The notes beneath the pieces were generated by a model, which saw nothing but the letters and a program-made list of their open reading frames with translations, was not told the origin of the DNA and made no database searches. The position numbers and the translations under genes are program-made. From Deltaproteobacteria bacterium (lineage in GTDB: Bacteria; Desulfobacterota; Desulfobacteria; Desulfobacterales; JAFDCJ01), in contig JAJRVC010000326.1 of assembly GCA_024277475.1 (NCBI GenBank), positions 1-39,346 of the forward strand: 39,346 nucleotides of DNA, read 5' to 3'. This document shows positions 1-21,963 of the stretch, one piece after another (within the stretch, counting starts at the first letter, position 1; each line of letters begins with the position of its first letter).

Positions 1-3
1 CAT
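1..3 (-). CDS. Start codon of a divergent gene running off the left edge
   Basis: On the minus strand an AGGAGG ribosome binding site (positions 16-11) lies seven bases before an ATG at 3-1. This is a near-ideal translation start, so a gene very probably begins here and continues left of the window. Nothing of its product is visible. It is divergent from the BREX fragment and lies where the rest of the methyltransferase should be. It could be a regulator, a toxin-antitoxin gene or a mobile-element gene. Confidence 0.55.
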
Positions 4-16
4 TTTTTCACCTCCT

Positions 17-48
17 AAAGTTATATTGATCTGGCCTAATATAACTTT
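17..48. promoter_or_regulatory. Perfect inverted repeat, candidate operator
   Basis: AAAGTTATATT (17-27) is the exact reverse complement of AATATAACTTT (38-48), with a ten-base spacer. It abuts the AGGAGG of the leftward gene, so it lies in that gene's promoter or leader. The size and symmetry fit a dimeric repressor site and are too AT-rich for an intrinsic terminator. The binding protein is unknown; autoregulation by the leftward gene is an inference. Confidence 0.5.
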
Positions 49-118
49 TAGAACGTGAAATGTCCAGCCATAATATTTATAATTTTATCAGTCACTTTCG
101 ATTGCTTAAAGTGCCACC

Positions 119-1129
119 TTGAAAGTGATGGCCTATAAATCTAATGGTGGTCTTGAAAAACGTTTTTTGAAAAAGGCCGAAACAGAAGAAGGTGTCTGGG
201 ATTGTATAAAAACACATTTAAATAACTTGCCTGTTGTCAAACCCAAGGGGGGGCAACTCGAATTCATTACCGAACGTGATCCCCGCATTTTGTATGACCG
301 TACTGTGGCCGTTTACGTTCGCCATAGCATACCAGTTCCGTTGTCATCGCCTGAATTTCAAGCCGGTCTGGCAGACAAATTCCCTGAACGAGACGGCATG
401 TATTTCCTTCCAGATCAGGCCGCTGAGTATGATAAAAAGCGTATAAAAATGGAAGGATTGGGCCAGAGGGCCATTTGGGTGGAAGATGAACGCAGTGCTG
501 CAGACTGGCTTCGTAGTTTCTTAAAAAATAAACCATCCAAGTATCAAGAAATACAGCCTGAGTTTTTCGAAAAACTTAATGAGGCCTGGAAAAAATGGGA
601 AACGCGGCCAGAGCTTCGGTCATTATTAGACCAATATTTCCTTTGCTACGACGGACAGGAAAATGTGCCGCCCCAGATCCATAGCTACTTGTCAACCAAC
701 TTTAAAGAGCTGCGTAAACTTCCGGCCGATAGTCCCTTGCTGCGCTCTAAGGCCAAGGACCGCTGGTATGTGCCCGATCCTCGTAAAAACGCAGATGTTG
801 AAAAACTCAGGGAAAAGAGGCTGCTTGAGGAGTTCTGGATCTACTTACCGCCGGGATATGATGTTGAGGCAATTAAAAGGCGTATGCAAAGTGGCCAGGA
901 AATGCTTCCCGGTATGGAATCACCGCCGCCAAAAGTTCCAAGAGGCAAGCGCCTTAAGCTTGTGCGGACCGAGGCGGTCAGGGTGGGTTTCAAGCAATGT
1001 TACCAATTTAAAGATTACCAGACCATCATTGCGGTCGCCCATTATATACCGGAAAATGTCGTCAATGGAGACGATCAGCTTCAGATGATATATGACTCAG
1101 CAGTGACCCGCTCAGGCCTGGAGATTTAG
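119..1129 (+). pseudogene. C-terminal fragment of BREX type 3 DNA methyltransferase PglXI
   Basis: The 336-residue product resembles only the C-terminal third of the long adenine methyltransferases (PglXI) of BREX type 3 systems, where the enzyme marks host DNA. Recognisable stretches are ERDPRILYDRTVAVYV, FPERDGMYFLPDQ, QIHSYLSTNFKELRKLP and KAKDRWYVPDP. The N-terminal catalytic part, with the SAM-binding and NPPY-type motifs, is absent. The frame is closed by TAA at 107-109, and the bases before it do not look coding. The only start options are TTG 119 or ATG 128, and neither has a convincing ribosome binding site. The gene is followed after 14 bases by brxHII. It is most likely a 5'-truncated remnant left by a rearrangement; a stand-alone domain protein is possible. 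The family call comes from remembered sequence patterns, not a search. Confidence 0.75.
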
Positions 1130-1143
1130 CACCATTCGATGAA

Positions 1144-3960
1144 ATGGAAAAAACAGAATTAAAAATGTCGCAAACCCCCTGGGCCTGGTCAAAGTCCTAT
1201 CGAGAGCAGGTAAGAGTTATTGAAAGAATCGAGCTTTGGGGCGCTTTGAATTACCGGATTTGGCTTCCAGGCCATGACACAGTGGTTTTAGTGCCATCTT
1301 CTGATATAGCCGCCGGCGGATCAATTGACTTTCAAGGGAAAGAAGATCAAACTGAGCTTTCTTACATCAAATTTCTGCTGATGGCGGCCAAATTGGCTAA
1401 TCTGTTGACCGAAGATGTCCTGCTGGCGCCGATTGATTCCACCGTCATCCCTCTTCCCCACCAAATCAAGGCCTTGCGAAAGGCCATTTCAAGAGACCGG
1501 GTCCGTTTTTTACTGGCGGATGAAGTCGGGCTGGGCAAAACCATTGAAGCCGGTCTGATCATGAGAGAAATGAAGCTGCGGGGGTTGGTTAAAAGAATCC
1601 TGGTGGTATCACCAAAAGGGTTAATCATGCAGTGGATTGCCGAAATGAAGACCCATTTCGACGAAGAGTTCCGCTATTATGCACCCGCCGATTTCACATC
1701 CTACCGTCGTATTGCCGGAAAAGACAATATTTGGACGACATCCGACCAGATTATATGTTCTCTGGATTCGGTCAAACCGGTTGAATCCCGAAAGGGATGG
1801 ACCGATGAAAAGCTTGCACAATTTAATAAAGACCGATTCCAGGACCTGATCAGTGCCGGCTGGGATTTGATCATTGTGGATGAATCCCACCGGCTGGGAG
1901 GCAGTTCGGATCAGGTTGCCCGTCATCAGCTCGGCAAAGGACTTGCAGAGGCTGCGCCTTACCTGTTGCTGCTTTCGGCCACCCCCCATCAAGGCAAATC
2001 CGACGCTTTTCATCGATTGCTGACTCTGATAGACAAGACGGCTTTCCCCGATCCTTCTAGCATTACCCGGGAACGGATACTTCCTTATGTAATTCGAACG
2101 GAAAAGCGCCAGGCGATCGATGCGGACGGTAAAGCCTTGTTCAAACCCCGAGTTACCAAGCTGATAGGAATTCCGTGGAAACCTGTCCACCTGATGCAGC
2201 GCCGGCTGTATGATGCTGTAACAGAATATGTTCGAAAAGGCTATAACCAGGCCATTAAAGAAAAAAAAGGGTATATCGGTTTCTTAATGATTCTGATGCA
2301 GCGACTGGTTACTTCCAGCACCCGGGCAATTTCGACGACACTTGAACGCCGGTTGGAAGTTTTGCACCAACCGCAGGAACAGATGAGTCTTTTCCCGTCG
2401 ATTTTTGAAAATGAGTGGGCCGACTCAGACGGACAGGAGCAGCTCGAATCTGTTTTAGGTGTCCGTTTAAAAGCTCAGAAAAATGAGAGGGCCGAGGTTA
2501 AGCTATTGCTTGATGCCGCCAAACAGGTGGAAGCTCGCGGACCGGATGCCAAGGCTGAAATCTTATTGGAATGGATCTACAAACTACAGAAAGAAGAAGC
2601 AGAGCTTGAGCTGAAACTACTCATTTTCACTGAATTTGTGCCGACCCAAGAGATGCTGGCTGAATTTTTGACAGCCCGCGGGTTTTCCGTTGTCTGCCTG
2701 AATGGCAGCATGGATATGGATCAACGGAAACGAGTACAGACGCTTTTTTCCAGAGACGTTCGAATACTCATATCCACCGATGCCGGCGGCGAGGGCTTGA
2801 ATCTTCAGTTCTGCCATGTTGTCATCAATTACGATATCCCCTGGAACCCCATGCGGTTGGAGCAGCGTATCGGACGTGTAGATCGAATCGGCCAGGAAAA
2901 AATCGTACGGGCAATCAATTTTATCATCGAAGATACCATCGAATATCGGGTGCGTGAGGTTTTGGAAGAAAAACTTGCAACTATCTTGGATGAGTTCGGT
3001 GTCGATAAAACCAGCGATGTTCTGGATTCTGCAGAAACCGATCATCTTTTTGAAAATCTTTATATTGAAACGTTGAGAAATCCGGAATCGCTTGACGCCG
3101 AAGCACAGCGACTGATTAATACAATTAGAGAAGAAGCTGATCAGGCGAAAAACAAAAACACTCTTTTCCGTGATAACCTTGACCTTAAGCCGGATGATGC
3201 CCAGCAAGTTCGCCATTACCCATTGGCCGACTGGATAGAATGCATGACAATAAATTATCTGGATGCCTTTGGCGGCTCTATGAAACAAAAGGATGAGTGC
3301 TTTGAAATAAAATGGTCAAATGAAAATGAGCCTCAGTTAGTAGTTTTCCCTGGTAATTCACATCAGGCACCTGATGGTGTCGAAATTTTGTGCCTTGAGA
3401 ACCCTCGAATCCGGGAAATGCTGTCAAAATGGCGCCGATTTTCTGCCGGCCGGCCAATTTTAAAGGTTGAAGCAAAAGATATTCCTGAAACTATTCAGGG
3501 CTACTGGTCATTGTGGCAGATTCGAATGAATACCATGGATAGCCAGCATCAAAGAATAATGCCTCTTTTTGTGCATGATGACGGACGTAACCTTCAGCCA
3601 ACGGCGAAATATGTTTGGGATCATTTGAATTCAGGAAACTGGCAAATAACCGGTGAAACTTCTGAAAATGAATCGGTTCAAATCTATCAGAGATGCAAAC
3701 AATTCGCTGTCGAACAGGGCGGCGCCATTTATCACGAAATGCGACAAAAACATCTTAATCAGCTTGAACTGGAGCAGGAGAAGGCCGAACACAGCTTCAA
3801 ATCGCGCAGACAGATTCTGAATAAGGTCGGTCTTGATCAGGTTAAGGCCTATCGCCTCAGGCAACTCAGGAAAGAAGAGGAAGCGTGGCGATCTGAAAAT
3901 AAAAGGAAGCTGCAGGTAACGCCGGAACTATTTGCATTGATTGTTCTAAGGATAAATTAA
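1144..3960 (+). CDS. brxHII: BREX type 3 SNF2-like helicase BrxHII
   Basis: This 938-residue SNF2/DEAD-like helicase is expected to act on DNA within the BREX phage-exclusion machinery. Motif I DEVGLGKTIEAGL lies near residues 126-138, motif II VDESHR near 245, and motif III LLSATPHQG near 277. The C-terminal helicase lobe spans roughly 490-590, with STDAGGEGLNLQ and the arginine-finger motif RIGRVDRIGQ. The N-terminal region (about 1-110) has the WAWSKSYREQVRVIER type of start seen in this family. The C-terminal 150 residues are charged and probably coiled. The likely start is ATG 1144, although ATG 1168 is also possible. It sits 14 bases after the methyltransferase fragment and 4 bases before pglZ, matching the BREX type 3 order pglXI-brxHII-pglZ-brxA. 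All key motifs look intact. DISARM DrmD helicases are similar, but the PglZ neighbour favours BREX. Confidence 0.85.
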   Translation: MEKTELKMSQTPWAWSKSYREQVRVIERIELWGALNYRIWLPGHDTVVLVPSSDIAAGGSIDFQGKEDQTELSYIKFLLMAAKLANLLTEDVLLAPIDSTVIPLPHQIKALRKAISRDRVRFLLADEVGLGKTIEAGLIMREMKLRGLVKRILVVSPKGLIMQWIAEMKTHFDEEFRYYAPADFTSYRRIAGKDNIWTTSDQIICSLDSVKPVESRKGWTDEKLAQFNKDRFQDLISAGWDLIIVDESHRLGGSSDQVARHQLGKGLAEAAPYLLLLSATPHQGKSDAFHRLLTLIDKTAFPDPSSITRERILPYVIRTEKRQAIDADGKALFKPRVTKLIGIPWKPVHLMQRRLYDAVTEYVRKGYNQAIKEKKGYIGFLMILMQRLVTSSTRAISTTLERRLEVLHQPQEQMSLFPSIFENEWADSDGQEQLESVLGVRLKAQKNERAEVKLLLDAAKQVEARGPDAKAEILLEWIYKLQKEEAELELKLLIFTEFVPTQEMLAEFLTARGFSVVCLNGSMDMDQRKRVQTLFSRDVRILISTDAGGEGLNLQFCHVVINYDIPWNPMRLEQRIGRVDRIGQEKIVRAINFIIEDTIEYRVREVLEEKLATILDEFGVDKTSDVLDSAETDHLFENLYIETLRNPESLDAEAQRLINTIREEADQAKNKNTLFRDNLDLKPDDAQQVRHYPLADWIECMTINYLDAFGGSMKQKDECFEIKWSNENEPQLVVFPGNSHQAPDGVEILCLENPRIREMLSKWRRFSAGRPILKVEAKDIPETIQGYWSLWQIRMNTMDSQHQRIMPLFVHDDGRNLQPTAKYVWDHLNSGNWQITGETSENESVQIYQRCKQFAVEQGGAIYHEMRQKHLNQLELEQEKAEHSFKSRRQILNKVGLDQVKAYRLRQLRKEEEAWRSENKRKLQVTPELFALIVLRIN

Positions 3961-3964
3961 TATC

Positions 3965-5983
3965 ATGAAGGACTGGCGGGAAGACATACTAAAGTATTTT
4001 GTCAACGGCATCTCCCGAAAGACGGTGGTAGCGGATCCCGATGAACTTTTTCGGGATGAAGGTCTTTTTACGGAAATCAGCCGACGTGGTTTTTCACTGC
4101 TCCATTTTGAAGACTCCGTTTCTTTTCGATTCACTTACGAATCTGAATTCAGAGAGGCTTGGAATAAGGGTGAAGATAAGGAGCTGGTTGTTATCGTTAA
4201 ACCGGATACTGCTGAATTTGATATGCTGCCCGCAGATTTGCTCCAAAACGCCCGCAAGCTTACTTTTTATCTAAAAGATATTTTCCAGAATCTGTCCTAC
4301 GATGTCATTTCAAAGCTGAACAAGAGTTGTCTTGATCAACTTTACAAGGCATACAATCAATATGCCAATCAGGCAATGGGTCAGCCTTTAACTATCGAAT
4401 TTATTCTTAAACATGTCTTTGGTATTGCACCGGAAGTTATAAAAAAGAACAGCGATCTGATGCGGATGCTTATTAAGCGTCATTACAACAAACTAAAAAT
4501 ACCGAGGATACTGGACCGGCATCTTCTTTTGACAATAGAAAAAACAGGCCTCTTTAAGGACTGGCCGTTAAATTATATCTTGCCGGATCGAACAGCCTTC
4601 TGGGAATTTTTACAAGAACGGTGGCAAATTTTTGCGGCCGGCCAATCCGGGGTAAAAGCGAATAGGGTTGCTGATAAAAGGGATTTAAAGTACCCGGGCG
4701 AAACAAACATCCCCTTTGATCATGACGACATTCGTGGCCATATCGAGAAGCTGTTTGAGGAAGGCATCTTGATGCCGATTGAAGGAAATTCCAAAATCGG
4801 TTCATCGATACCCTGGATAAAGGTGGGGATAAAAGGAAAAACGTCTGGCCAGGTTAAAAGTCAATTTAAAGATTTTTTAGCGGGCCTTCAAAATGAAATC
4901 CCCGGAGCGGATGCTGCAGCCCATTTTGATTGGTTTAAACTTGCGATGCGCTATGCTCAGCTTCGATACATGTGGTATCAAAACTTTCATGATTTAAAGG
5001 AAAATTTTAACGAGGATTTCAATGAACTCTCAGACAAGCTGAATATTTGCTTTCAGTCATGGGCGGTTGAAAACTTTCAGGGGTTATACAACTATCCTTC
5101 GGTAAGTCCTGTCATGGTTCACCACATACCGGGCTATCTTGCACACAAATTAACTGAACCGGATATTTCCAGAATCGCCTTTTTGTTAATAGACGGTCTT
5201 GCCCTCGATCAATGGCTTTTGCTTAAAAATATTTTGATGAAGGATGTAGAAAAAATATCAATACATGACAACGCTCTGATGGCCTGGATCCCTACAATTA
5301 CGCCGGTGTCAAGACAAGCCGCCTTTTCCGGAAAAATTCCCCGTTATTTTACAGACACGATCTATAGAACTGATAGAGACGAATATTTGTGGCGCCAGTT
5401 CTGGTCGGACAGAAATTTCAGACCCGACGAAATCAATTTTTTAAAAGTTAACGGCGATAGAGGCGATCAAGAGAAACTGGACAAAGTGCTCGCATATCAA
5501 ACTCGTGTATTGGGATGTACCATTTACAAGGTTGATCAAATAATGCATGGTGTCCAAGTCGGAAATGTCGGAATGTGGAACCAGGTTAAGACATGGGCTG
5601 AACAGGGATTTATCAAATCTTTTATTGAAAGGCTGATAGCGGAAAATTTTTATATATGCATATCCTCCGATCATGGCAACATCGAGGCAAAAGGCATCGG
5701 AGCTACTAATGATGGCGTTCTCTGCGATACTAAAGGGGAGCGCTGCAGAATATACTCGGATTTAAGACTTCGAGATGAACGGCATAAGCATCTTCAGGAC
5801 ACGCTTTGCTGGGATCATCAGGGTCTTCCAAAAGACTATTACTGTCTGCTTTCGCCACAGGGAAAATCTTTCAGCCCAAAAGATAAAACGGTTGTTTGCC
5901 ATGGTGGAATCAGCATAGATGAAGTCATGGTCCCTTTCATTGAAATAAGCCAGCAGCGAGCAAGTTACGGGCATGATAAATAA
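3965..5983 (+). CDS. pglZ: BREX PglZ alkaline-phosphatase-fold protein
   Basis: PglZ is the signature BREX component. It has an alkaline-phosphatase-superfamily domain and is required for phage exclusion, although its exact substrate is unsettled. In this 672-residue protein the C-terminal PglZ domain begins near residue 390. AFLLIDGLALDQW (about 404-416) supplies the first metal-binding Asp, TPVSRQAAFSG the nucleophile region, ISSDHGN (about 565) the Asp-His pair, and CHGGISIDEVMVPF (about 645) the last His. The N-terminal 390 residues carry the less conserved helical region usual in the family. The gene lies 4 bases after brxHII and overlaps brxA by 11 bases, so all three are translated from one message. 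The length and metal ligands look complete. The start is ATG 3965, closely coupled to the brxHII stop. Confidence 0.88.
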   Translation: MKDWREDILKYFVNGISRKTVVADPDELFRDEGLFTEISRRGFSLLHFEDSVSFRFTYESEFREAWNKGEDKELVVIVKPDTAEFDMLPADLLQNARKLTFYLKDIFQNLSYDVISKLNKSCLDQLYKAYNQYANQAMGQPLTIEFILKHVFGIAPEVIKKNSDLMRMLIKRHYNKLKIPRILDRHLLLTIEKTGLFKDWPLNYILPDRTAFWEFLQERWQIFAAGQSGVKANRVADKRDLKYPGETNIPFDHDDIRGHIEKLFEEGILMPIEGNSKIGSSIPWIKVGIKGKTSGQVKSQFKDFLAGLQNEIPGADAAAHFDWFKLAMRYAQLRYMWYQNFHDLKENFNEDFNELSDKLNICFQSWAVENFQGLYNYPSVSPVMVHHIPGYLAHKLTEPDISRIAFLLIDGLALDQWLLLKNILMKDVEKISIHDNALMAWIPTITPVSRQAAFSGKIPRYFTDTIYRTDRDEYLWRQFWSDRNFRPDEINFLKVNGDRGDQEKLDKVLAYQTRVLGCTIYKVDQIMHGVQVGNVGMWNQVKTWAEQGFIKSFIERLIAENFYICISSDHGNIEAKGIGATNDGVLCDTKGERCRIYSDLRLRDERHKHLQDTLCWDHQGLPKDYYCLLSPQGKSFSPKDKTVVCHGGISIDEVMVPFIEISQQRASYGHDK

Positions 5984-6716
5984 AAAAATGGATATCGGCT
6001 TCAATCGGAAAGTTAAAGCCGACTGGCTGAAAGAGACTTTACAATTAACAGCATCCGGAGTCACAAGGGATGAGATCGAACCGATTTTAAAAAATGAAAT
6101 TGCCAAAGTAAATCCCGGCAAAGAGACAATCCGCAAAGTGTTTATTTATCTTAATCGTGTATGGATTGATCCGCCGGACTATTGCAAGAGATTGCGGGAC
6201 GGTGGTCTTGAAATATTTTCTAAAAAGCCCAATGCCGACACTGCTTTCCTTCTAATCTGGGGGATGTGCATCGCATCCTATCCTTTCATTGGCTGCGTTG
6301 CAGAAGCCACGGGCAGGCTTCTTCGTCTGCAAGGTGAGGTACAGGCTGTTCAAGTAAATCAGCGGCTCAGAGAAAAATATGGCGACAGGCATTTTGTTCA
6401 TAGATCGGTGCGCTACAACCTGAGCACTTTTTTAGATTTAGGTGCCTTAAAGCAAGGAGCCCAAAAGGGTGTTTATGTTAAGGGAAAGGTGTATCGACCA
6501 AAGAGCGATATGGAAATTTCGTGGCTAATCGAGGCTGTTTTACATACCCAAACCAATAGTAATCTGCCTTTCACACGCTTAATACAACATGGATCACTCT
6601 TTCCATTCAACATAACTGATCTATCAGTAACCTCTTTGAAAAAGAATCCCAGGATCGAAATTTTTCGGCACGGGCTGAATGAAGAATTGATTGGTATTAG
6701 TGATAAAGGGACGTAA
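5973..6716 (+). CDS. brxA: BrxA-like DUF1819 protein, end of the BREX operon
   Basis: The 247-residue product matches the BrxA (DUF1819) pattern, a small DNA-binding BREX protein. It has the central segment FIGCVAEATGRLLRLQGEVQ followed by a winged-helix-like stretch with VNQRLREKYGDR and VRYNLSTFLDLGAL. The short hydrophobic run FLLIWGMCIASYPF near residue 90 is typical of the family and has led to membrane-protein annotations. The start may be ATG 5973 or ATG 5988; both overlap or abut the pglZ stop. The last-gene position after pglZ is exactly that of brxA in BREX type 3. No further BREX gene follows; the downstream region is a hairpin element. The family call is good and the biochemical role is inferred from homologues. 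Confidence 0.75.
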   Translation: MINKKMDIGFNRKVKADWLKETLQLTASGVTRDEIEPILKNEIAKVNPGKETIRKVFIYLNRVWIDPPDYCKRLRDGGLEIFSKKPNADTAFLLIWGMCIASYPFIGCVAEATGRLLRLQGEVQAVQVNQRLREKYGDRHFVHRSVRYNLSTFLDLGALKQGAQKGVYVKGKVYRPKSDMEISWLIEAVLHTQTNSNLPFTRLIQHGSLFPFNITDLSVTSLKKNPRIEIFRHGLNEELIGISDKGT

Positions 6717-6785
6717 ATTAGAGATTTAAGGCAGATGGCCATTGATAATTTGTCTGTATTCGAGAAAACAGTTACCAAAGAAAAG

Positions 6786-6837
6786 ACAGAGGGGTCGCCC
6801 ATTCTTGACATGAAGTGAAGAATGAAGGCCCCTCTGT
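6786..6837. repeat. Two-arm hairpin, REP-like element
   Basis: Outer arms ACAGAGGGG (6786-6794) and CCCCTCTGT (6829-6837) pair perfectly. Inner arms CATTCTT (6800-6806) and AAGAATG (6818-6824) also pair, separated by small internal loops. It could act as a transcription terminator for the BREX operon, but no U-run follows. The motif GGGGTCGCCCATTCTT recurs in slightly changed form at 24346-24360, so a dispersed REP-type element is more likely. Confidence 0.55.
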
Positions 6838-6878
6838 TCTCCCAAATAGGATTCGCAAACAATTTCCAAAGTTAAAGT

Positions 6879-7121
6879 TTGGTTACTTCAATCCACCGAA
6901 GGAAAATTTTGGGAAGAAATAAAAATGACCCTCGGTCCTCCGCTATTGCCGCCATGCCCGAAATGGCCATCCTTTTGGCCAAGAAACTCCTGCGTCATGC
7001 CATGGATTTAGACCTCAATGAGACGCTGGAAGAGGGATCCAGAGTTTTCCTGAATTGCAAAAAAGAACACAGCCTTTATGTCGCCGTCACCCGGGTCATG
7101 GAACAGATGCGGGGGAAATAG
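6879..7121 (+). pseudogene. Possible C-terminal remnant of an enoyl-CoA hydratase
   Basis: The 80-residue frame has a tail, AILLAKKLLRHAMDLDLNET and the following acidic helix to MEQMRGK, that resembles the last helices of enoyl-CoA hydratase/isomerase proteins. The first 25 residues look non-coding. Its position beside an acyl-CoA synthetase-containing transporter operon makes a lost beta-oxidation gene plausible. The similarity is short and weak, and a random frame cannot be excluded. Confidence 0.3.
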
Positions 7122-7148
7122 GCGCCTGTTACGAATCCTGAAAAAAAA

Positions 7149-8345
7149 TCAGAGATCCTTGGGACTGCGCCAACCGGTCAGAGGCACCAGACGCTTCTTT
7201 TCCACATCGGCCTTAAAAAGCTTCATCTTTTTTGCCGGCGCGTGGCTTTCGGGTGTATAGGTTACCGGCGGAAAGATGCCGCCGGTATCAAAATCCCGAA
7301 GGGTTTCCAGGGCATTTTTCAGAGTGTCGGGGGTCAGATCTTTACCGGCTCTTTTTATACCTTCAGCAAAAAGCATGGAGACGCCGAGTCCGCCGATATA
7401 CAAACTGGTCAGCTTGGGTTTGCGGTTGTATTTTTCGGCGATCTCGCGAACCAGCTTGATCCCGGGCGTGTCGTCGGTCCAGCTTCCCACAAATCCGGCC
7501 CCGATGTAGTTCTTGGCTGCCGGGCCGCAGGCTTTCACCAGAAGATCGTCCGTGGCCCAGTTAAAACCGAAAACCTGGGGCCAGTAGTTGTATTTTTCAG
7601 CAGTTTTCAAAAATGAGATGATGGGCGGCAGCACATCGCAGGTGATCACGATGTTGGCGCCCGCGTGCTGCAGCGCCAGCACCTGGCTGGAGGCATCCAC
7701 CGCGCCGGTGGGCAACACCAGTTCGGCCACGACGGGAAGATTGTACTTGGCAGCCCGTTTTTTAACAGCGTCGAGACCCTTTTTGCCGTATTCCTTTTTG
7801 GTATAGACCACGCCGATCCTCTTGTCTTTCATCTTGAGGTCATCGTTGATGTAATCCACGATCACCTGGTATTGCCATTCATAAAGTGCTCCAAGAGCAA
7901 AAATATAAGGGTTCAAAGGATCGAAAAACTCCAGGGCCATGGCGTTGGGGATATTGACCATCTTGTAACGTTTGATGTTTTTCATGTTGGCGATGGTTTG
8001 ATTGGTGCCCCCCGTGGTCATAACGGTCAGGACCTTATCCCTGGCGATGAGCTTTTTGACCGCAGCCACAGATTTGGGCGCCTGAAACCCATCATCTTCC
8101 CAGAGCACCTTTATTTTGCGGCCGTTAATGCCGCCTTTTTCATTGATGTAATTCATGTAGTCGATCATGGCGTTCCCCTGAGGAATGCCGAGAGCCGCCA
8201 CCGGGCCGGTCTTGACCAGCACAAAACCCAGCTCGACCGAGTCGTCTGTGACACCCCGGCCGGAGGCCGGCGCCAACCCGGTGGTGAGAAGAAATGCCAT
8301 ACAAACCAATGCCGTCATTCCTGCCAATCTACTTTTGTTTCTCAT
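7149..8345 (-). CDS. livK: Branched-chain-amino-acid-type ABC transporter substrate-binding protein
   Basis: This 398-residue periplasmic binding protein (Peripla_BP_6 family) captures the ligand for the Liv-type ABC importer encoded upstream. A cleavable signal peptide is visible: basic MRNKSR, a hydrophobic core near residues 8-24, then an Ala/Ser-rich cleavage region. Family hallmarks include VELGFVLVKTGPVAALGIPQ at the mature N-terminus, GGTNQTIANM, and a long type 1 periplasmic fold through about residue 390. The start ATG 8345 has a GGGAGG ribosome binding site at 8358-8353. It is the last gene of the leftward operon tetR-livF-livG-acyl-CoA synthetase-livH-livM-livK. The ligand is not evident from sequence. 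With a CoA ligase in the operon, a carboxylic acid (fatty, branched or aromatic) is at least as likely as an amino acid. Confidence 0.88.
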   Translation of the reverse strand: MRNKSRLAGMTALVCMAFLLTTGLAPASGRGVTDDSVELGFVLVKTGPVAALGIPQGNAMIDYMNYINEKGGINGRKIKVLWEDDGFQAPKSVAAVKKLIARDKVLTVMTTGGTNQTIANMKNIKRYKMVNIPNAMALEFFDPLNPYIFALGALYEWQYQVIVDYINDDLKMKDKRIGVVYTKKEYGKKGLDAVKKRAAKYNLPVVAELVLPTGAVDASSQVLALQHAGANIVITCDVLPPIISFLKTAEKYNYWPQVFGFNWATDDLLVKACGPAAKNYIGAGFVGSWTDDTPGIKLVREIAEKYNRKPKLTSLYIGGLGVSMLFAEGIKRAGKDLTPDTLKNALETLRDFDTGGIFPPVTYTPESHAPAKKMKLFKADVEKKRLVPLTGWRSPKDL

Positions 8346-8415
8346 ACATTTTCCTCCCTTTGTTTAGGCGCCAGGGTTTTTTCAAAAAAGAAACCTCTGA
8401 CGAGTTTAAAAGCTG

Positions 8416-9468
8416 TTAGTATGTAAAAGGCCAGTTTTTAAATCCAACCTTTATCTTTTGCCATATGGCGTTCAGGCCACCGGGTTCGAAAATCAAAAAC
8501 AGCATGATCAAAAGCCCGAATACCGCAATATTCCATTCTTCATCGTAACGGCCCTGCATGGCGGGGATCAGCGACTCAATGGCCTGCGCCAGAAGCTTTA
8601 TGCCTTCAGGTACCGTCACAATAAAAACCGCACCAAAAATGGAACCGAGGATGCTGCCCAGCCCCCCGATGATGATCATGGCCAGGTACTCAACAGAGGA
8701 CAACAGGGTAAAGTGTTCAGGGTGAATATGTCCCATGACATAGGCGTACATGCCCCCCGCCACACCGGCGAAAAAGGAGCTTAAGGCAAAGGCCGTAACC
8801 TTATATCCCGTGAGGTTGACCCCCATGACTTCCGCTGCAATGTCCCGATCTCTCACCGCGATGAATGCCCGGCCGACCCGCGTGCGGATAATATTCTTGG
8901 CCGCGATGATCATCAGGGCCGTAATGCATAGGAGGAAGTAATACATGCTTTCGTCCGTATCCAGGGCGTGACCTAACACGTTGACTTCGGGCATGTACAT
9001 GCCCCGCTCGCCGCCGGTCAGCCCTTTCCAGGTGATGAGCACATACTCCACCATGACGCCGAAAGACATGGTGGCCATGGCAAGATAGAGGCCCTTAAGT
9101 CTGAGGCAGGGGATTCCCAACAGAATTCCGACAGCGGCGCTGACCAGGCCCCCGGTGGGGAGCGTGATCCAAAAAGGCATTCCAAGACCTTCTCCCAGCA
9201 GGGCGGCAGTGTAGGCGCCGATAGCCAGAAAAGCAGCATGACCCAGAGAAATCTGGCCTGTAAACCCGGTGAGGATATTGAGCCCAACGGCGGCCACTAT
9301 GGCAATAGAAGAGAGATTCACCATATAGACGATGTAGGTATCCGTAATATAAGGCAGAATGAGCAAGCCCAGGATAAACAAGCCCATCCAGCACTTGCTC
9401 CAGATGGTGTTCAGCAGTTTAATGTCCTCATGGTAGCTTTCGCAAAACGTCTTGCTGCGAATCGGCAT
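8416..9468 (-). CDS. livM: ABC transporter permease, LivM type
   Basis: This 350-residue inner-membrane permease forms one half of the translocation channel of a branched-chain-amino-acid-type importer. About nine or ten hydrophobic segments are visible. The family signature near residues 62-90 reads GLNILTGFTGQISLGHAAFL, and the cytoplasmic EAA-like loop near 205-235 includes RAFIAVRDRDIAAEVMGVN. GGLGSILGSIFGAVF marks the late membrane region. It starts five bases after the livH stop and lies 70 bases before livK, so it is in the same transcript. No strong ribosome binding site is visible at ATG 9468, which suggests translational coupling to livH. Length and motifs are normal for LivM. Confidence 0.9.
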   Translation of the reverse strand: MPIRSKTFCESYHEDIKLLNTIWSKCWMGLFILGLLILPYITDTYIVYMVNLSSIAIVAAVGLNILTGFTGQISLGHAAFLAIGAYTAALLGEGLGMPFWITLPTGGLVSAAVGILLGIPCLRLKGLYLAMATMSFGVMVEYVLITWKGLTGGERGMYMPEVNVLGHALDTDESMYYFLLCITALMIIAAKNIIRTRVGRAFIAVRDRDIAAEVMGVNLTGYKVTAFALSSFFAGVAGGMYAYVMGHIHPEHFTLLSSVEYLAMIIIGGLGSILGSIFGAVFIVTVPEGIKLLAQAIESLIPAMQGRYDEEWNIAVFGLLIMLFLIFEPGGLNAIWQKIKVGFKNWPFTY

Positions 9469-9473
9469 AATTG

Positions 9474-10355
9474 TTAGACCCTTTCCACTTCTTTGGTTCC
9501 GAATAGCCCGTAGGGCTTTATCATCAATACCAGAAACAACACGGCAAAGGGCGTCACATCCTTGATTCCGCCCCCCACGATCTGGTCCAGATATCCACCG
9601 GCCAGGTTTTCCAGAATGCCGATGGCGAGCCCTCCGATAATGGCGCCGGGAATGCTCTCGAGCCCTCCCAGAATCACGGCAGGAAAGGCACTGATGGCCA
9701 CAAAAGCCAGACCCACGTTGAGCACCATGACGTTTGCCAAGCCCACGCCGGCAAGTCCCGCCACTACGAAAGAGATCCCCCAGGTTAACGCGTACACCCT
9801 TTTTATGCTGATCCCCATGAGGGTGGCGGTGTCCTGATCATTGGCCGTGGCTCTCATGCCTAAGCCCAGACGGGCGAATTTGAAAAAGAAGAAAAAAAGG
9901 AGCATGAGTGAAAAGGAGATGATCATGCTCCAGAGATGATTATGACTCAACACAATGCCCGCCACATGGAGAGGTTCCACGGGAAAAGGACTGGGAAAGA
10001 CATAATTGTGGTGTCCGAAGATGATTCCGGCCATGGAGCGCAGGAAGATGCTAAGGCCGATGGTAACCATGACCACGGAAAAGACCGGTTCTCCCAACAG
10101 GGGCCGGATCACCAGACGTTCTGTGACGCCTCCCAGCAGGGCCGACGCAACCAGGGTGAGGGGTACGGCCAGCCAGAAAGGGACCCCGAAGCCGGTGACC
10201 AGATAATAGGCAATAAAGGCCGCCACCATGATCACCTCTCCCTGGGCAAAGTTGAGGACGCCGGTCCCCTTGTAAATGAGCACGAACCCCATGGCAATGA
10301 GCGCATAGAGGCTGCCCACGGCTATTCCGCTTATGACAAGTTCCAGGAAATACAT
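9474..10355 (-). CDS. livH: ABC transporter permease, LivH type
   Basis: This 293-residue inner-membrane permease pairs with LivM. The N-terminal LivH pattern GSLYALIAMGFVLIYKGTGV, followed by LNFAQGEVIMV, is clear. The loop RATANDQDTATLMGISIKRV near residues 180-200 is the ATPase-coupling region, and AVILGGLESIPGAIIGG lies near 228-245. Eight or so membrane segments are seen. ATG 10355 has an AGGAGG ribosome binding site six bases upstream. A gap of about 116 bases separates it from the acyl-CoA synthetase gene, without an obvious terminator. The gene is complete and unremarkable for the family. Confidence 0.9.
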   Translation of the reverse strand: MYFLELVISGIAVGSLYALIAMGFVLIYKGTGVLNFAQGEVIMVAAFIAYYLVTGFGVPFWLAVPLTLVASALLGGVTERLVIRPLLGEPVFSVVMVTIGLSIFLRSMAGIIFGHHNYVFPSPFPVEPLHVAGIVLSHNHLWSMIISFSLMLLFFFFFKFARLGLGMRATANDQDTATLMGISIKRVYALTWGISFVVAGLAGVGLANVMVLNVGLAFVAISAFPAVILGGLESIPGAIIGGLAIGILENLAGGYLDQIVGGGIKDVTPFAVLFLVLMIKPYGLFGTKEVERV

Positions 10356-10471
10356 GCACGCCTCCTCAAATAGGGTTTCCCCATGTTTTGGGTCTTCGAG
10401 ATTTTTTTTAACAGGCTTTGTTCATAACACAAAGGTGGCCAAGGGATGAGGCCGAAATAATATCTCCGTCC

Positions 10472-12292
10472 CTAATACATCGAGTCAATGATCTGTTTGA
10501 ATTTCTTTTCCACGGTGGAACGGCGTACCTTCATGGTGGCCGTCACTTCGTCGTCATCCTGGTCAAGCTCCTTGGTGAGGATGGCGAATTTTCTGATTTT
10601 TTCCACTCGTGCCAGTTGTTCGTTGACCGCATCCACTTCCCCCTGAATGAGCTTATTGACCTCATGGTTTTCAGCCAGGCTCTTATAGGTGGTGTAAGCA
10701 ATGCGGTTTTCCTGGGCCCAGTCGGAAACATTGTCCAGCTCAAGTTGAATCAGAGCTGAGAGATATGGACGACCGTCGCCCACCACAATGCCTTCCTTGA
10801 TGAATGAGCTGAATTTCAGTTTGTTCTCAATTTCGCTGGGGGCGATGTTTTTTCCATAGGCGTTGATGATCAGGTCTTTCTTGCGATCCACGATCTTAAG
10901 CTGACCTTCATCAGTGAATTCGCCCACATCCCCGGTCATGAGCCAACCCTCCTCGTTATAAGAGGCGGCGGTTTGTTCGGGATTGCCGTAGTAGCCCTCG
11001 AAAACGGAATCACCCCTGAGCATGATCTCGCCGTCGTCGGCTAGTTTGATCTCAATTCCCGGGATTGCCTCGCCCACCTCCCCGGCGCGAATCTTGTGAT
11101 TGATGGGAATGACGCTGATTCCTGCGCATTCGGTCATCCCGAAGCACTCCCGCACCCGTACGCCGATGCCATGATAAAAACGCAATAGTTCTTTGGACAT
11201 TGGGGCGGCGCCGCTCACAAAGATGCGTCCGTTTAAAAGGCCCATGGAATTCTTCAAGGCCCTGAAAAGGAGCAGGTAGCCCAGTCCGTAAAGAATCCGC
11301 CAGAAAAAGGGAATCTGCTTTCCCGAAAGCCTGAGGGCTGCCACTTTTCCCCCGATGGGCATCACGGCGTTATACACCCAACGCTTGAAAAAAAAGGAGT
11401 CTTTTATCTTAATGGCGATGTTGGAATGCATTTTTTCCCATATACGGGGAACCGACAGAAAAGCGGTGGGGGAAATCTCCCGCAGGTCTTCCTGCAGGGT
11501 GGCGACGCTTTCCGCGAAATTCACGGTACACCCTGCCCACATGGGAAAAATCAGGGAAAAACTCCGTTCAGCAATGTGGCAAAGGGGGAGTGCCGAGACC
11601 AAGGAGTCTTTCTGATTGAAGGGGATCACTTGGCTGAGCCCCTGGATCATGGCCGTCATATTGCGGTGGGTGATCATGGCGCCCTTAGGTTTGCCCGTGG
11701 TGCCGGAAGTGTAGACCATGACCCCCACATCGTCCGGCTCAACAGCCTCCACCATACGTTCGAACGCTTCCGGATCTTTCCTGTGGCGGACGATTCCTAG
11801 CTTTTCCACCTCCTCAAAGCTGATGATCATGGGGTCTTTATAGTTTCTGAGCCCTTTCATGTCTATGACGATAATATGCTTCAGGCGCGGGAGGCGGACT
11901 TTGATCTCAAAAATTTTGTCCACCTGTTCCTGATCTTTGCAGACCACCATGGAGGAATCGGAGTTTTCCAGCACATAGAAGCATTGTTCAGCCACATTGG
12001 TGGGGTAGACCCCGATGGAAATGGCGCGGCAGGCTTGGACTGCGATGTCCGCATAGAGCCATTCCCGGCAATTATCTCCTAAGATGGAAACCTTGCCTTC
12101 CTCATCTTCAAGACCCAGTTCCTTAAGCCCCAGCGCGAAGTTGCGCACATGTTCCCAATACTGGTTCCAACTGACCTTTTGCCAGATCCCCAGGTCCTTT
12201 TCGCGCAGGGCCGTCCGGTCTCCATAGCGCAGGTGATTGTTTTTAAGGAGTTTGGGGATTGTCAGTTTACCGACGGCTGTTTCTTGCTTCAT
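10472..12292 (-). CDS. Long-chain-type acyl-CoA synthetase (AMP-forming)
   Basis: This 606-residue AMP-forming ligase activates a carboxylic acid to its CoA thioester through an acyl-adenylate. The AMP-binding P-loop VYTSGTTGKPKGAMITHRN lies near residues 192-210. ECFGMTECAG (about 381-390) carries the second core motif, TGDVGEF (about 451) the ATP-ribose Asp, and DRKKDLIINAYGKNIAPSEI (about 466-485) the hinge and C-terminal domain. Length and motifs fit the FadD15/long-chain group; the true chain length or ring specificity cannot be read. It is sandwiched between livG, two bases away, and livH, so import and activation of the same acid is the natural inference. The pairing with Liv transporters is recurrent in proteobacteria that use fatty or aromatic acids. 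Confidence 0.88.
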   Translation of the reverse strand: MKQETAVGKLTIPKLLKNNHLRYGDRTALREKDLGIWQKVSWNQYWEHVRNFALGLKELGLEDEEGKVSILGDNCREWLYADIAVQACRAISIGVYPTNVAEQCFYVLENSDSSMVVCKDQEQVDKIFEIKVRLPRLKHIIVIDMKGLRNYKDPMIISFEEVEKLGIVRHRKDPEAFERMVEAVEPDDVGVMVYTSGTTGKPKGAMITHRNMTAMIQGLSQVIPFNQKDSLVSALPLCHIAERSFSLIFPMWAGCTVNFAESVATLQEDLREISPTAFLSVPRIWEKMHSNIAIKIKDSFFFKRWVYNAVMPIGGKVAALRLSGKQIPFFWRILYGLGYLLLFRALKNSMGLLNGRIFVSGAAPMSKELLRFYHGIGVRVRECFGMTECAGISVIPINHKIRAGEVGEAIPGIEIKLADDGEIMLRGDSVFEGYYGNPEQTAASYNEEGWLMTGDVGEFTDEGQLKIVDRKKDLIINAYGKNIAPSEIENKLKFSSFIKEGIVVGDGRPYLSALIQLELDNVSDWAQENRIAYTTYKSLAENHEVNKLIQGEVDAVNEQLARVEKIRKFAILTKELDQDDDEVTATMKVRRSTVEKKFKQIIDSMY

Positions 12293-12294
12293 GG

Positions 12295-13062
12295 CTATTG
12301 GTCGCCCTCTCCCAGGTATGCTTCAATGACTTTCGGGTCTGCCTGAACCTGGGCCGGCGTGCCGTCGGCGATCAACACACCGAAATCCAGCACCGTTACC
12401 CGGTCTGCAATGTCCATGACCACGCCCATATCGTGTTCAACCATCAAAATGGTCGTGCCCAGTTCTTCCTTGATATCCAGAACGAAGCGGGCAATATCTT
12501 CGGTTTCCTCCACATTCATGCCGGCTACCGGCTCATCCAGAAGCAGCAGTTTTGGATTATTGGCCAGGGCCCGGCCCATTTCCACCCGTTTCTGGATGCC
12601 GTAAGGCAGAGAACCTACCGGCTTCTTTCTGACTTTTTCGATTTCCAGAAAATCGATGATCTCTTCCACTTTCAGCCGATGAGCGGTTTCTTCCGTCAAC
12701 GCACGGCCGTAGAATAGAGCGCCGGTCAGAATGCCCGTTCGCATGTGAAGGTGTCGCCCCAGGAGCAGGTTGTCGATCACGGTCATGTGTTGAAACAGCT
12801 CGATGTTCTGAAAGGTGCGGGCCACGCCTAGACCCGCGATGCGGTGAGGCTTCATTTTGTTCAAAACATGCCCCTCAAACAAGGCCTCCCCGGATGTGGG
12901 CCGATAGATGCCGCTAATCACATTGAACAAAGATGTCTTTCCAGCGCCGTTGGGGCCGATCAAGGCGTGAATATGCCCCCGCTCAACTTCAAAGGCTACA
13001 TCGGACAAAGCGGCGATTCCACCGAACCGGATGGCGACGTCATTTATTTCCAACTGGGCCAT
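12295..13062 (-). CDS. livG: ABC transporter ATPase, LivG type
   Basis: This 255-residue ATP-binding subunit powers the Liv-type importer. Walker A GPNGAGKTSLFNVISG lies near residues 36-51, the LivG variant of the signature, LPYGIQKRVEMGRAL, near 157, and Walker B LLLLDEPVAGMN near 180, followed by the switch His in MVEHDMGVV. The motif ARTFQNIELFQHMTV near residue 86 is the usual Q-loop region of LivG. It begins ten bases after the livF stop and ends two bases before the acyl-CoA synthetase, indicating one transcript and probable translational coupling. It is full length for the family. Confidence 0.92.
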   Translation of the reverse strand: MAQLEINDVAIRFGGIAALSDVAFEVERGHIHALIGPNGAGKTSLFNVISGIYRPTSGEALFEGHVLNKMKPHRIAGLGVARTFQNIELFQHMTVIDNLLLGRHLHMRTGILTGALFYGRALTEETAHRLKVEEIIDFLEIEKVRKKPVGSLPYGIQKRVEMGRALANNPKLLLLDEPVAGMNVEETEDIARFVLDIKEELGTTILMVEHDMGVVMDIADRVTVLDFGVLIADGTPAQVQADPKVIEAYLGEGDQ

Positions 13063-13072
13063 GTTGATACCC

Positions 13073-13879
13073 CTAAGACAACCAGCGTTTTCGTCGTTTG
13101 TAGTGTTTTACCTGGGCGTAGTTTTTGCGCTCCTTCTGGTCGGTTACGCCCAGGTAGAATTCCTGCACATCCTCATTTTCTTTGAGCTGCCGGCAGGGAC
13201 CGTCCAGCACAATGCGGCCGTTTTCCATGATGTACCCATAAGAGGCGAAATTGAGCGCCAGATTGGCATTCTGCTCCACCAGCAAAAGGGTGGTATTCTG
13301 TTCCTGGTTTATCCGTTTCAGTATTTCAAAGATGCTCTTCACCACCAGCGGCGCCAGGCCCAGGGAAGGTTCATCCAGCATAATGAGACTCGGTTGCGAC
13401 ATGAGTGCCCGGCCCACTGCCACCATCTGTTGCTCGCCTCCCGACAGGTAAACCGCCCGCTGATTGCGCCTTCCCCTGAGAATCGGGAAATAGTCCAGGA
13501 CCATTTCCAGGTCTTTTCTCACCTGGCTGCGGTCAGAGCGAGTGAAAGCCCCCACCACAAGGTTTTCCACCACCGAGAGATCGGAGAATATGCGACGACC
13601 CTCGGGAACCATGGAAATCCCATTCCGGACGATCCGGTCCGGGTCATCATCCTGGATCTTTTTTCCGTCGAAGGATATGGTTCCGCCTTCCAGGTCGCCA
13701 TTCTGTAGCCTGAGAACTCCGCTGATGGCCTTCAGCGTTGTGGTCTTCCCCGCGCCGTTGGCCCCCAAAAGGGCCACGATGTCCCCTTTTGGCACAGACA
13801 GAGATATGCCCTTCAACACCAGGATTACGTCGTTGTAAACAACCTCGATGTTATTGACTTCAAGCATCCTTCGCTCCAT
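13073..13879 (-). CDS. livF: ABC transporter ATPase, LivF type
   Basis: This is the second ATPase of the importer. Walker A GANGAGKTTTLKAISG lies near residues 38-53, the signature LSGGEQQMVAVGRAL near 145, and Walker B LIMLDEPSLGLAP near 165, followed by LLLVEQNANLAL with the switch region. The C-terminus carries an extra basic tail ending KHYKRRKRWLS, slightly longer than many LivF proteins. The start at 13879 gives 268 residues. ATG 13867 is better placed behind a GGAG and would remove four residues. It is the first transporter gene after tetR, 73 bases downstream, and so probably shares the tetR promoter. Confidence 0.92.
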   Translation of the reverse strand: MERRMLEVNNIEVVYNDVILVLKGISLSVPKGDIVALLGANGAGKTTTLKAISGVLRLQNGDLEGGTISFDGKKIQDDDPDRIVRNGISMVPEGRRIFSDLSVVENLVVGAFTRSDRSQVRKDLEMVLDYFPILRGRRNQRAVYLSGGEQQMVAVGRALMSQPSLIMLDEPSLGLAPLVVKSIFEILKRINQEQNTTLLLVEQNANLALNFASYGYIMENGRIVLDGPCRQLKENEDVQEFYLGVTDQKERKNYAQVKHYKRRKRWLS

Positions 13880-18496: not shown

Positions 18497-19720
18497 TCAC
18501 TGATTTTCCGCTAACAGCCTATTTTCGGCCAACAACCCGGCAAAGTGGTCAAAAGGAAATACATCAATGCCGTCATAAGTCCGCATTACAGGCCCATGGG
18601 GATAGACGACAATCCTGCGCTGCAGGCCTTTGAGATCGGTGATCGCGCGTAAGCCTTTGCACCATTTTTCTGAGAACGCCCTACCCGATTTTGCTTCTAC
18701 TGCGACAAACTCCCGATTTCGATGCAGCAAAAAATCAACTTCGGTTTCGATGCCACCGGCAGGTGCCCAGTAATACATATCATCGAAAATATGACGGTAA
18801 TCCTTATATGCCCTGAGTAGCTGAGCCACCAAGCCTTCAAACAAGGGCCCTTTTTCTTCAGGGATTAGTTCTCCCTGGGAGCGTTTAATCGCCCGCACCA
18901 GGCCGGGATCACACCAGTACCACTTGGGAAGCTTTCGTTCCCGTACCCTCATTTTAGCCTCGTAACCGGGAAGACGGAAACAGAGTAGGGTCTCCTCAAG
19001 AATGTCGAGATACCCTGCCACGGTCGTTCTGGCAACACCTGCTTCTCTGGCAATATTGCTCACATTCAGAGCTTGGCCTTGATAAAGGGCAGCAATCGGC
19101 AGGAAGCGGGCAAATCCGGCCAGGTTTCGCACCAGAGCTTCGGTCTGAATTTCTTCCTTCAGATACAACTGTGCATAGGCTGCCAGTGTTTCCGATTTTT
19201 CAACCGAGTCCCAGACGATGGGCAGCAATCCAAATCGAAGCACTTCGTCGACGTCGAGTGGCTCGTTAAGTTCTTCCGGCACAAAGGGATGCATAGAACG
19301 GTTTAATGCACGCCCGGCAAGCAGGTTGACACCGGCCCTTTTGAGTTTGCGGGCGCTTGACCCGCACAGTACAAATTTAAGCTGCTTTTTTTCGATATAC
19401 CTATGTACCTCATTCAACAGTGCCGGCAACCGTTGCACTTCATCGATGACTACCCATCTACCAGCGGGGATAGCACGCAGCTGGTTTGCCAAAAGTCCGG
19501 GATTGGCCAGCAGGCCTTGATAAGTGGCTTCGGACAATAAATCGATTACGTGGGCGTCGGGAAAGAGAGCTCGCAACCAGGTGCTTTTCCCAGTGCCCCG
19601 CGGTCCAAGAAGAAAAAAGCTTTGTGAAGGTGGTTTGAGAATTCTTTTCAGCATTTTAGACAACCATGTCGTCATTTTTCGTCGCAATTTGACGTCATCA
19701 TAGTCAAAAATCAGTGTCAA
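18497..19720 (-). CDS. AAA-type ATPase with DUF4143 C-terminal domain
   Basis: This P-loop ATPase belongs to the AAA_14 plus DUF4143 group, a widespread family of unknown role sometimes called archaeal-type ATPases. Walker A FFLLGPRGTGKSTWL lies near residues 36-50, Walker B RWVVIDEVQRLPALLNEVHR near 88-108, and sensor-1-like FVLCGSSARKL near 115. A winged-helix linker, NIAREAGVARTTVAGYLDIL, lies near 225. The nuclease-like C-terminal motif ETEVDFLLHRNREFVAVEAK ends the DUF4143 domain (E-x-D plus E-x-K). The listed start at TTG 19720 is unlikely; ATG 19675 or ATG 19654 gives the usual family N-terminus. It stands alone between two copies of the PAS-sensor 5' region. Confidence 0.8.
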   Translation of the reverse strand: MTLIFDYDDVKLRRKMTTWLSKMLKRILKPPSQSFFLLGPRGTGKSTWLRALFPDAHVIDLLSEATYQGLLANPGLLANQLRAIPAGRWVVIDEVQRLPALLNEVHRYIEKKQLKFVLCGSSARKLKRAGVNLLAGRALNRSMHPFVPEELNEPLDVDEVLRFGLLPIVWDSVEKSETLAAYAQLYLKEEIQTEALVRNLAGFARFLPIAALYQGQALNVSNIAREAGVARTTVAGYLDILEETLLCFRLPGYEAKMRVRERKLPKWYWCDPGLVRAIKRSQGELIPEEKGPLFEGLVAQLLRAYKDYRHIFDDMYYWAPAGGIETEVDFLLHRNREFVAVEAKSGRAFSEKWCKGLRAITDLKGLQRRIVVYPHGPVMRTYDGIDVFPFDHFAGLLAENRLLAENQ

Positions 19721-19970: not shown

Positions 19971-20639
19971 TCAAAATTTCAGATCTCTTAAAAATTCATG
20001 CGCAGGAAGCATACTCAAAGGGCCCTTCGCTTTTTTTTGTCTCAGGTTATGGACAATCTGAACCGGTTTTGCAGTTTTCAAAAAATTATGAAAACGAGAC
20101 AGGGATGGAGAAAAACTGTCGTCGCCTGATTTTACTTCAATCATCATTAACGGCTTGTTATCAATAACCGGAAGGAAATCCACTTCATTTTTTTCCTTGT
20201 CCCTGAGATAATGAAGAGCAACCCTCCTTCCGGTTGTATCTTCAATAAAATGAAGCTCCCGCAAGAGTGCACAGGCAACCGTATTTTCCAGTTTGGCACC
20301 CAGATGCCCATCAACGGCACCTGTATCATATAAATAATATTTCGATTCTTTTAACAGGCTGCGCGCTATATTTTTATGATAGGGGCGAACAGGAAAAATT
20401 ATATACAAGTTTTCAAGAATTTGAAGCCAGTGCTTCACCGTATGAACAGAGACCTGAAGATCATTCGATAACGATGAAAATGAAGTTGTCGACCCCACAC
20501 GTGCTCTTATCAGATCGATCAGTATTTCAATGGATTTTATATCCCTGACTCTTTCCAGGTCTAAAAGATCTTCCCGAATGATTGTATCCGTATGGGTTCT
20601 TCGCCACCCTATTAATTCCTTCTGAGAGTTATATGTCAC
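19971..20639 (-). pseudogene. DUF4143 protein lacking its ATPase half
   Basis: The 222-residue product matches the DUF4143 half of AAA_14/DUF4143 proteins. It includes WRRTHTDTIIREDLLDLERV, the winged-helix region LSNDLQVSVHTVKHWLQILE, RPYHKNIARSLLKESKYYLY, and the nuclease-like end KNEVDFLPVIDNKPLMMIEV. The usual N-terminal 150 residues with Walker A and B are missing; upstream of GTG 20639 there is no P-loop in any frame I could see. It is not a recent copy of the 18497-19720 gene, since the linker and C-terminal sequences differ substantially. It is probably a 5'-truncated remnant; a stand-alone domain protein is less likely. Confidence 0.65.
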
Positions 20640-21039: not shown

Positions 21040-21963
21040 ATGAAATGGATTGAAACAAAAATTGTCTTTGATCATCCGAATAAGGATCTGGCCGTCGACC
21101 TGATTTCCGATGTCTTTTACGATTTCGGGCTGCAGGGAGTTGTTGTTGAAGATCCTCGTATCGAACCCGGGGAAGGATGGGCGGAAGATGCTGTCGGACG
21201 TCCCGATCGTTATACGGTGACCGGGTATTTTCCTGGCGATAACCGGATCGGGAAGCGATTCAAAATTTTTGAAAACAAACTGTTGCAATTAAAAGAAAAA
21301 CTCGGCCTGATTTACAGGATGAGTTACAAAGAACTTGATTAAGAGGACTGGGCTCACTCGTGGAAAAAATATTTTTGGCCCCAAAAGATCGGCCGCAATA
21401 TGGTGGTCAAGCCGACCTGGCGGGATTACCGGGCCGATACGGGCGAGGTAGTCATCGAGTTGGATCCCGGCATGGCCTTCGGGACCGGAACACACCCGAC
21501 CACGGCCCTGTGTATCTCCATGGTTGAAAATTACCTAAAAAAAGGTGATTTGTTTTTAGATATCGGCACCGGTTCCGGCATTTTGATGATTGCAGCCGCC
21601 AAGCTGGGGGCCGATAAAATTCGCGGGGTTGATCATGACGAAACAGCGGTGCCTATTGCCGTTGATAATTTAAGGCGAAATGGTATTGAAGCGCAGCAGT
21701 TTTTTGTAAACTGTGCCAATCTTGCGGAAGGAATCAAAGAGAGGTATGATATCGTTGTCGCCAATATCCTCAGCCAGGTAATTTTGGATCTGCTAAATGA
21801 CATCAGGAGCGTGTTGAAGGCCGGCGGAATTTTTATCTGTTCAGGAATCGTCGATAAGAACGAAAAGCAGGTTGTCGCTGCAATGAAAAATATCGGCTTT
21901 GAAATTCTTGAAATTAGTACACAAGACGAGTGGGTGGCAATTGCAGGGCGACTGACGGCATAG
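21040..21963 (+). pseudogene. prmA: Ribosomal protein L11 methyltransferase PrmA interrupted by TAA
   Basis: PrmA trimethylates ribosomal protein L11. The 308-codon frame is uninterrupted except for one TAA at 21340-21342. Residues 1-100 form the L11-recognition domain. After the stop, in the same frame, come EDWAHSWKKYF, VVKPTWRDY, and the methyltransferase motif FLDIGTGSGILMIAAAKLGA with GVDHDE and NILSQVI. The family usually has Glu-Glu-Asp-Trp here, so TAA probably replaces GAA by one base change. ATG 21400 could restart a 187-residue catalytic half, but no good ribosome binding site precedes it. Either the gene is inactivated, or the base is a sequencing or assembly error. L11 methylation is dispensable in E. 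coli, so loss is tolerable. Confidence 0.85.

Follow-up and report, generated by a model that had tools for sequence, protein, structure and literature searches.

What has happened to a defence locus that begins, in the first bases of a contig, with the last third of its methyltransferase gene? The window studied here is a whole contig of 39,346 bp from a Deltaproteobacteria bacterium (JAJRVC010000326.1, assembly GCA_024277475.1); P0001, the database copy of its methyltransferase fragment, is on a contig of exactly this length, and base 1 is taken as an assembly end. It opens with genes of a type 3 BREX (bacteriophage exclusion) system. The methyltransferase gene, pglXI, is truncated; to its left lie 118 bases unrelated to pglXI, and to its right full-length genes for a helicase, PglZ and BrxA. 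Probably, if not securely, the window shows the 3' half of a type 3 locus of the ordinary kind, whose pglXI has been interrupted by foreign DNA, likely a mobile element, and which is switched off.

The methyltransferase fragment

Upstream of the pglXI open reading frame (ORF), which occupies 119-1129, the same frame has a TAA stop at 107-109. Against the PADLOC profile for PglXI the ORF has an expect value (E) of 2e-121, the best stretch pairing protein residues 3-242 with profile positions 618-856 of 919; the remainder of a complete PglXI would be past the contig end. In a full homologue, the 951-residue protein of locus L002, the counterpart of the fragment is residues 618-951. An earlier sequence-only reading of the window, which had described the methyltransferase as a C-terminal third closed by this stop codon, is thus borne out. 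Homology to PglXI starts at about base 131, at AYKSNGG. The homologues extend upstream as VKQDLVISAYKPNGG, and the window departs from them just before AYKSNGG.

The L002 homologue carries GFCGTGMTG at residue 143 and DPPFG at residue 500, both upstream of the part equivalent to the fragment. We take these to be the cofactor and catalytic motifs, as is established for DNA methyltransferases. The same homologue has two PF01555 matches, of which that at 103-158 is the best, and a Pfam search of the fragment gave no match. The predicted structure of the fragment is mostly helical (mean predicted local distance difference test score 85.4, predicted template modelling score 0.56), and structure comparison returned weak matches throughout, some of them to winged-helix folds. 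According to PMC12839542 the type 3 methyltransferase has three helix-turn-helix-like domains in a C-terminal segment 280-300 residues long, and the fragment is about this segment.

The genes downstream

The three genes that follow each cover nearly the whole of their models. The helicase aligns with PDLC02500 over residues 9-938 (1360.8 bits, profile 3-929 of 933), a model that is also the top one for the helicases of two relatives, L007 and L032. PglZ covers profile positions 1-664 of 666 in PADLOC and scores 694.9 bits against NCBIfam NF033449 (BREX_PglZ_3), where the cut-off is 250, and BrxA covers positions 1-244 of 251 of PDLC02444 (E 3e-56). The earlier view of these genes as intact therefore stands, as does the assignment to type 3, for which a type 3 PglZ, a BrxHII helicase and a BrxA are all present. 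A further feature of type 3 systems, brxF and brxC upstream, concerns a region that falls beyond base 1.

An intact relative, L007 from an Opitutaceae metagenome-assembled genome (MAG), has the order brxF, brxC, two ORFs, pglXI, helicase, pglZ, brxA. The window shares with it the order and tight spacing of the pglXI part, helicase, pglZ and brxA. In contrast to L007, it has the last third of pglXI alone, and brxF and brxC are past the contig end. The two ORFs between brxC and pglXI in L007 (4305-6164 and 6223-8142) encode 619 and 639 residues and have no PADLOC match at E 1e-5.

The sequence-only reading went further, and held that the methyltransferase of this locus had lost its catalytic half. 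Such a loss, like one of brxF and brxC, does not follow. Because the contig ends at base 1, the absence of brxF, brxC and the front of pglXI is an absence from view: these parts are beyond the contig end, and loss is not implied.

Is the C-terminal part a gene of its own?

Genome contigs were scanned for relatives; of the 547 loci found, the best 80 were kept. Five of these (L004, L011, L048, L061 and L077) run into a contig edge, leaving 75 that can be assessed. In 70 of the 75 PglXI is a single ORF of 883-1058 residues. The ORFs are shorter in the other five: 816 residues in L001 and L003, 721 in L008, 620 in L032 and 792 in L041. A frame change near residue 115 is seen in L001, L003 and L041, and pglXI of L032 is in three pieces. 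An ORF starting at the window's junction occurs in none of the 75 assessable loci. With PglXI so regularly one ORF, and no ORF at the boundary, a conserved stand-alone C-terminal protein is argued against.

Proteins of similar length to the fragment give the same picture. Among the 120 matches listed, the window's own included, the starts are spread over full-protein positions 364 to 712, and six begin at an internal methionine, 712. The search was limited to 0.55-1.75 times 336 residues; full-length proteins were excluded by this design, so the length spread of the matches has no bearing on split genes. A search with the N-terminal part of the protein gave 7997 matches. The 120 of these that were listed have a median length of 951 residues, with 3 below 700 and 10 below 900. 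No protein stopping at the junction was noted among the 120, of which the ends of seven, the three short ones and four more, were inspected. Of the short ones, P0131 stops 60 residues past the start of DPPFG, P0219 ends at DPPFGSN, and P0222 passes the junction. A conserved separate gene of 336 residues, which the sequence-only reading had named as one observation that would overturn it, is rejected on the absence of such an ORF in all 75 loci together with the scattered fragment starts.

Precedents for a broken methyltransferase gene

The closest parallel among the relatives is L032 (Achromobacter pulmonis ANB-1), where pglXI is cut twice by transposase ORFs at 5613-10924. One insert carries a DDE_Tnp_1 transposase ORF and the other a pair matching HTH_Tnp_1 and rve, and the helicase, PglZ and BrxA downstream of the broken gene are full length. 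The window is alike in having a broken pglXI before a full-length helicase, PglZ and BrxA. It differs in how much can be seen, since L032 shows both inserts and every piece of the gene, whereas the window shows just 118 bases of putative foreign DNA.

The methyltransferase gene is also the one affected in other BREX types: a homopolymer tract in brxX and phase variation of PglX are reported for types I and II (PMC6326788, PMC9122589). Unlike in those cases, the cause here is out of view. Type 1 BREX on Acinetobacter plasmids is the subject of PMC10117892. Type 3 systems, according to PMC12839542, "remain less explored".

The left flank

The features of the junction and of the genes are collected in Table 1. 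The layout of the flank resembles the end of a mobile element, with a gene directed away from the fragment. None of the window's 290 other 135-bp tiles has such a perfect inverted repeat, and the 118 bases have a folding z-score of -3.98. The CACTTT/AAAGTG cluster, whose third copy falls within the start of the ORF, is unique for that hexamer in the window and was met in 1 of 20,000 simulations. A divergent gene adjoining the fragment had been proposed before; its start codon and AGGAGG are there, while the rest of the gene would be off the contig.

Table 1. Features at the left end of the window.
Position	Strand	Feature	Support
1..3	-	Start codon ATG of a divergent ORF, read 3..1, running off the contig	AGGAGG at 16..11
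17..48		Inverted repeat of 10 bp without mismatch (arms 17-26 and 39-48), resembling an operator or hairpin	
93..127		Three CACTTT/AAAGTG copies (93, 108, 122) reaching the junction; possible element end	
119..1129	+	pglXI, C-terminal third, 336 aa from TTG	ORF, PADLOC PglXI match
1144..3960	+	brxHII helicase, 938 aa, full length	PDLC02500 (BrxHI/BrxHII)
3965..5983	+	pglZ, 672 aa, full length	PADLOC, NF033449
5973..6716	+	brxA, 247 aa, full length	PDLC02444

Several observations on the flank weigh against foreign DNA of the mobile kind. If any hexamer is counted, 95 of 1500 simulations had three copies within 45 bp, as did 10 of the 290 tiles; such clusters are not rare, and by themselves the repeats are no proof. 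The flank had no match in collections of plasmids, E. coli and phages, none at E 0.001 in the 297 genomes of one phylum (that of L063, a locus titled Desulfobacterales MAG), and matches at chance level in 18 genomes of one order. The host is probably a member of that phylum: among 247 of its genomes, the acyl-CoA synthetase of the contig finds a best match at 67% identity. When searched as a pattern it gave a single chance-like match in 1 of 247 and in 1 of 395 genomes. These two matches (L106, L152) sit, by eye, among genes other than transposases, and in the set of 395 genomes the backward-read control matched four genomes against one for the real pattern. By eye, no transposase was seen among the ORFs listed for the viral-contig matches. 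IS21 was a candidate suggested by the repeat layout, and it was not confirmed: none of 45 IS21-type loci has an end of this type, in a test where the ORF was picked by length across the locus middle and some loci were unusable (such as L137, 0 residues). At one of them, L118, two AAAGTG copies stand ahead of the ORF with different flanking letters. Further, a target-site duplication is not visible, the far end being outside the contig. Of the transposase gene that defines an insertion sequence, the contig could hold the start codon, this being all that it has of the divergent ORF.

As to a promoter in the flank that would serve the BREX genes, bases 1-1200 have 3 promoter-like sites on the two strands together, one of them on the minus strand, where 1.8 (standard deviation 1.3) are expected; the excess is not significant.

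Weighing the explanations

If the locus is interrupted, pglXI would be cut near codon 620 of about 950 by foreign DNA. This would most likely be one end of an insertion sequence, with its gene pointing away from the fragment. The assembly would then halt 118 bases into this DNA. Short-read assemblies often break at repeated elements. The 5' part of pglXI would lie on the far side of the element, and the break would part the methyltransferase core from the C-terminal DNA-binding segment, so that the copy in the window would yield no active methyltransferase. If type I BREX is a guide, the system would neither mark self DNA nor block phage; in E. coli, deletion of brxX is reported to abolish both defence and methylation (PMC6326788). 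The earlier statement that an insertion or inversion broke the locus is partly supported, as unrelated DNA does abut a gene that is normally a single ORF. The contig alone fits an insertion, an inversion and a chimera alike.

The chimera is a serious rival, even if we judge it distinctly less probable than an interruption. Here the first 118-130 bases would come from another molecule, joined at the contig end during assembly, and pglXI would be intact in the organism. The join falls at most 131 bases from the contig end, and the GC of bases 1-250 is 0.348, below every other 250-base step to 12,000. Its standing as a serious rival comes from joins seen elsewhere. In P0119 an unrelated N-terminal part (residues 1-170) is joined to PglXI at AAYKPNGG, near the window's junction, and looks chimeric, and two contig-edge ORFs (L048 1-1069 and L061 1-1344) fuse distant parts of PglXI in frame in a way that looks artificial. 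Against a chimera, the flank is ordered, with a ribosome site and start codon, an inverted repeat and repeats running to the junction, and the flank and PglXI share no long identical stretch at the join. Our estimate was set after weighing the hexamer control. In L048 and L061 the middle with DPPFG is missing (about 242-609 and 281-577 of P0121), and the second part begins near TTPTAVKQDLVISAYKPNGG.

We regard it as improbable that a site-specific inversion or cassette exchange has turned the operon front, or an alternative pglXI front, to the left, with the divergent start its own or that of a recombinase. The divergent gene is oriented as expected for a recombinase or for the brxF side after inversion, the phase variation of pglX in other BREX types offers a precedent, and second full-length copies of PglXI exist in L034 and L075. 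But among the best 80 of the 547 loci there is no truncated pglXI cassette besides the contig-edge and broken cases. An inversion carrying the BREX promoter to the junction was rejected: when the flank was compared with the regions upstream of 34 brxF genes, there was no match and the best E was 0.76. The comparison is weak because all of these regions come from distant relatives. The two PglXI copies of L034 are in tandem (8126-13680), and those of L075 (5151-14337) flank pglZ and brxA.

The sequence-only reading had also suggested that the remaining genes might act without methylation. An insertion would in that case have freed the C-terminal part of PglXI as a DNA-binding protein, with which the helicase, PglZ and BrxA could work on unmarked DNA. 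The position of the break at a domain boundary and the predicted fold of the fragment are consistent with this, but the part is a separate gene in none of the assessable loci, the fragment starts are scattered, and by eye no clear ribosome site precedes 119 or 128. With brxX needed for type I defence and no other positive evidence in its favour, we consider this explanation very improbable indeed. The probable interruption most likely silences BREX, instead of creating a new type of defence.

If the insertion is real, the locus is a further case of BREX broken at its methyltransferase gene, here in type 3. It would gain in importance only if the freed DNA-binding segment proved functional. In general, a defence locus at the end of a contig should be named a variant only once its missing side has been seen.

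Other observations on the contig

Two further features lie away from the BREX locus. An ORF of 222 residues on the minus strand (19971-20639) encodes DUF4143 without a matching AAA half; it adjoins an AAA_14-DUF4143 protein (18497-19720) that has both halves. On the plus strand, prmA, for the ribosomal protein L11 methyltransferase (21040-21963), is divided by an in-frame TAA at 21340-21342 into ORFs of 100 and 187 residues.
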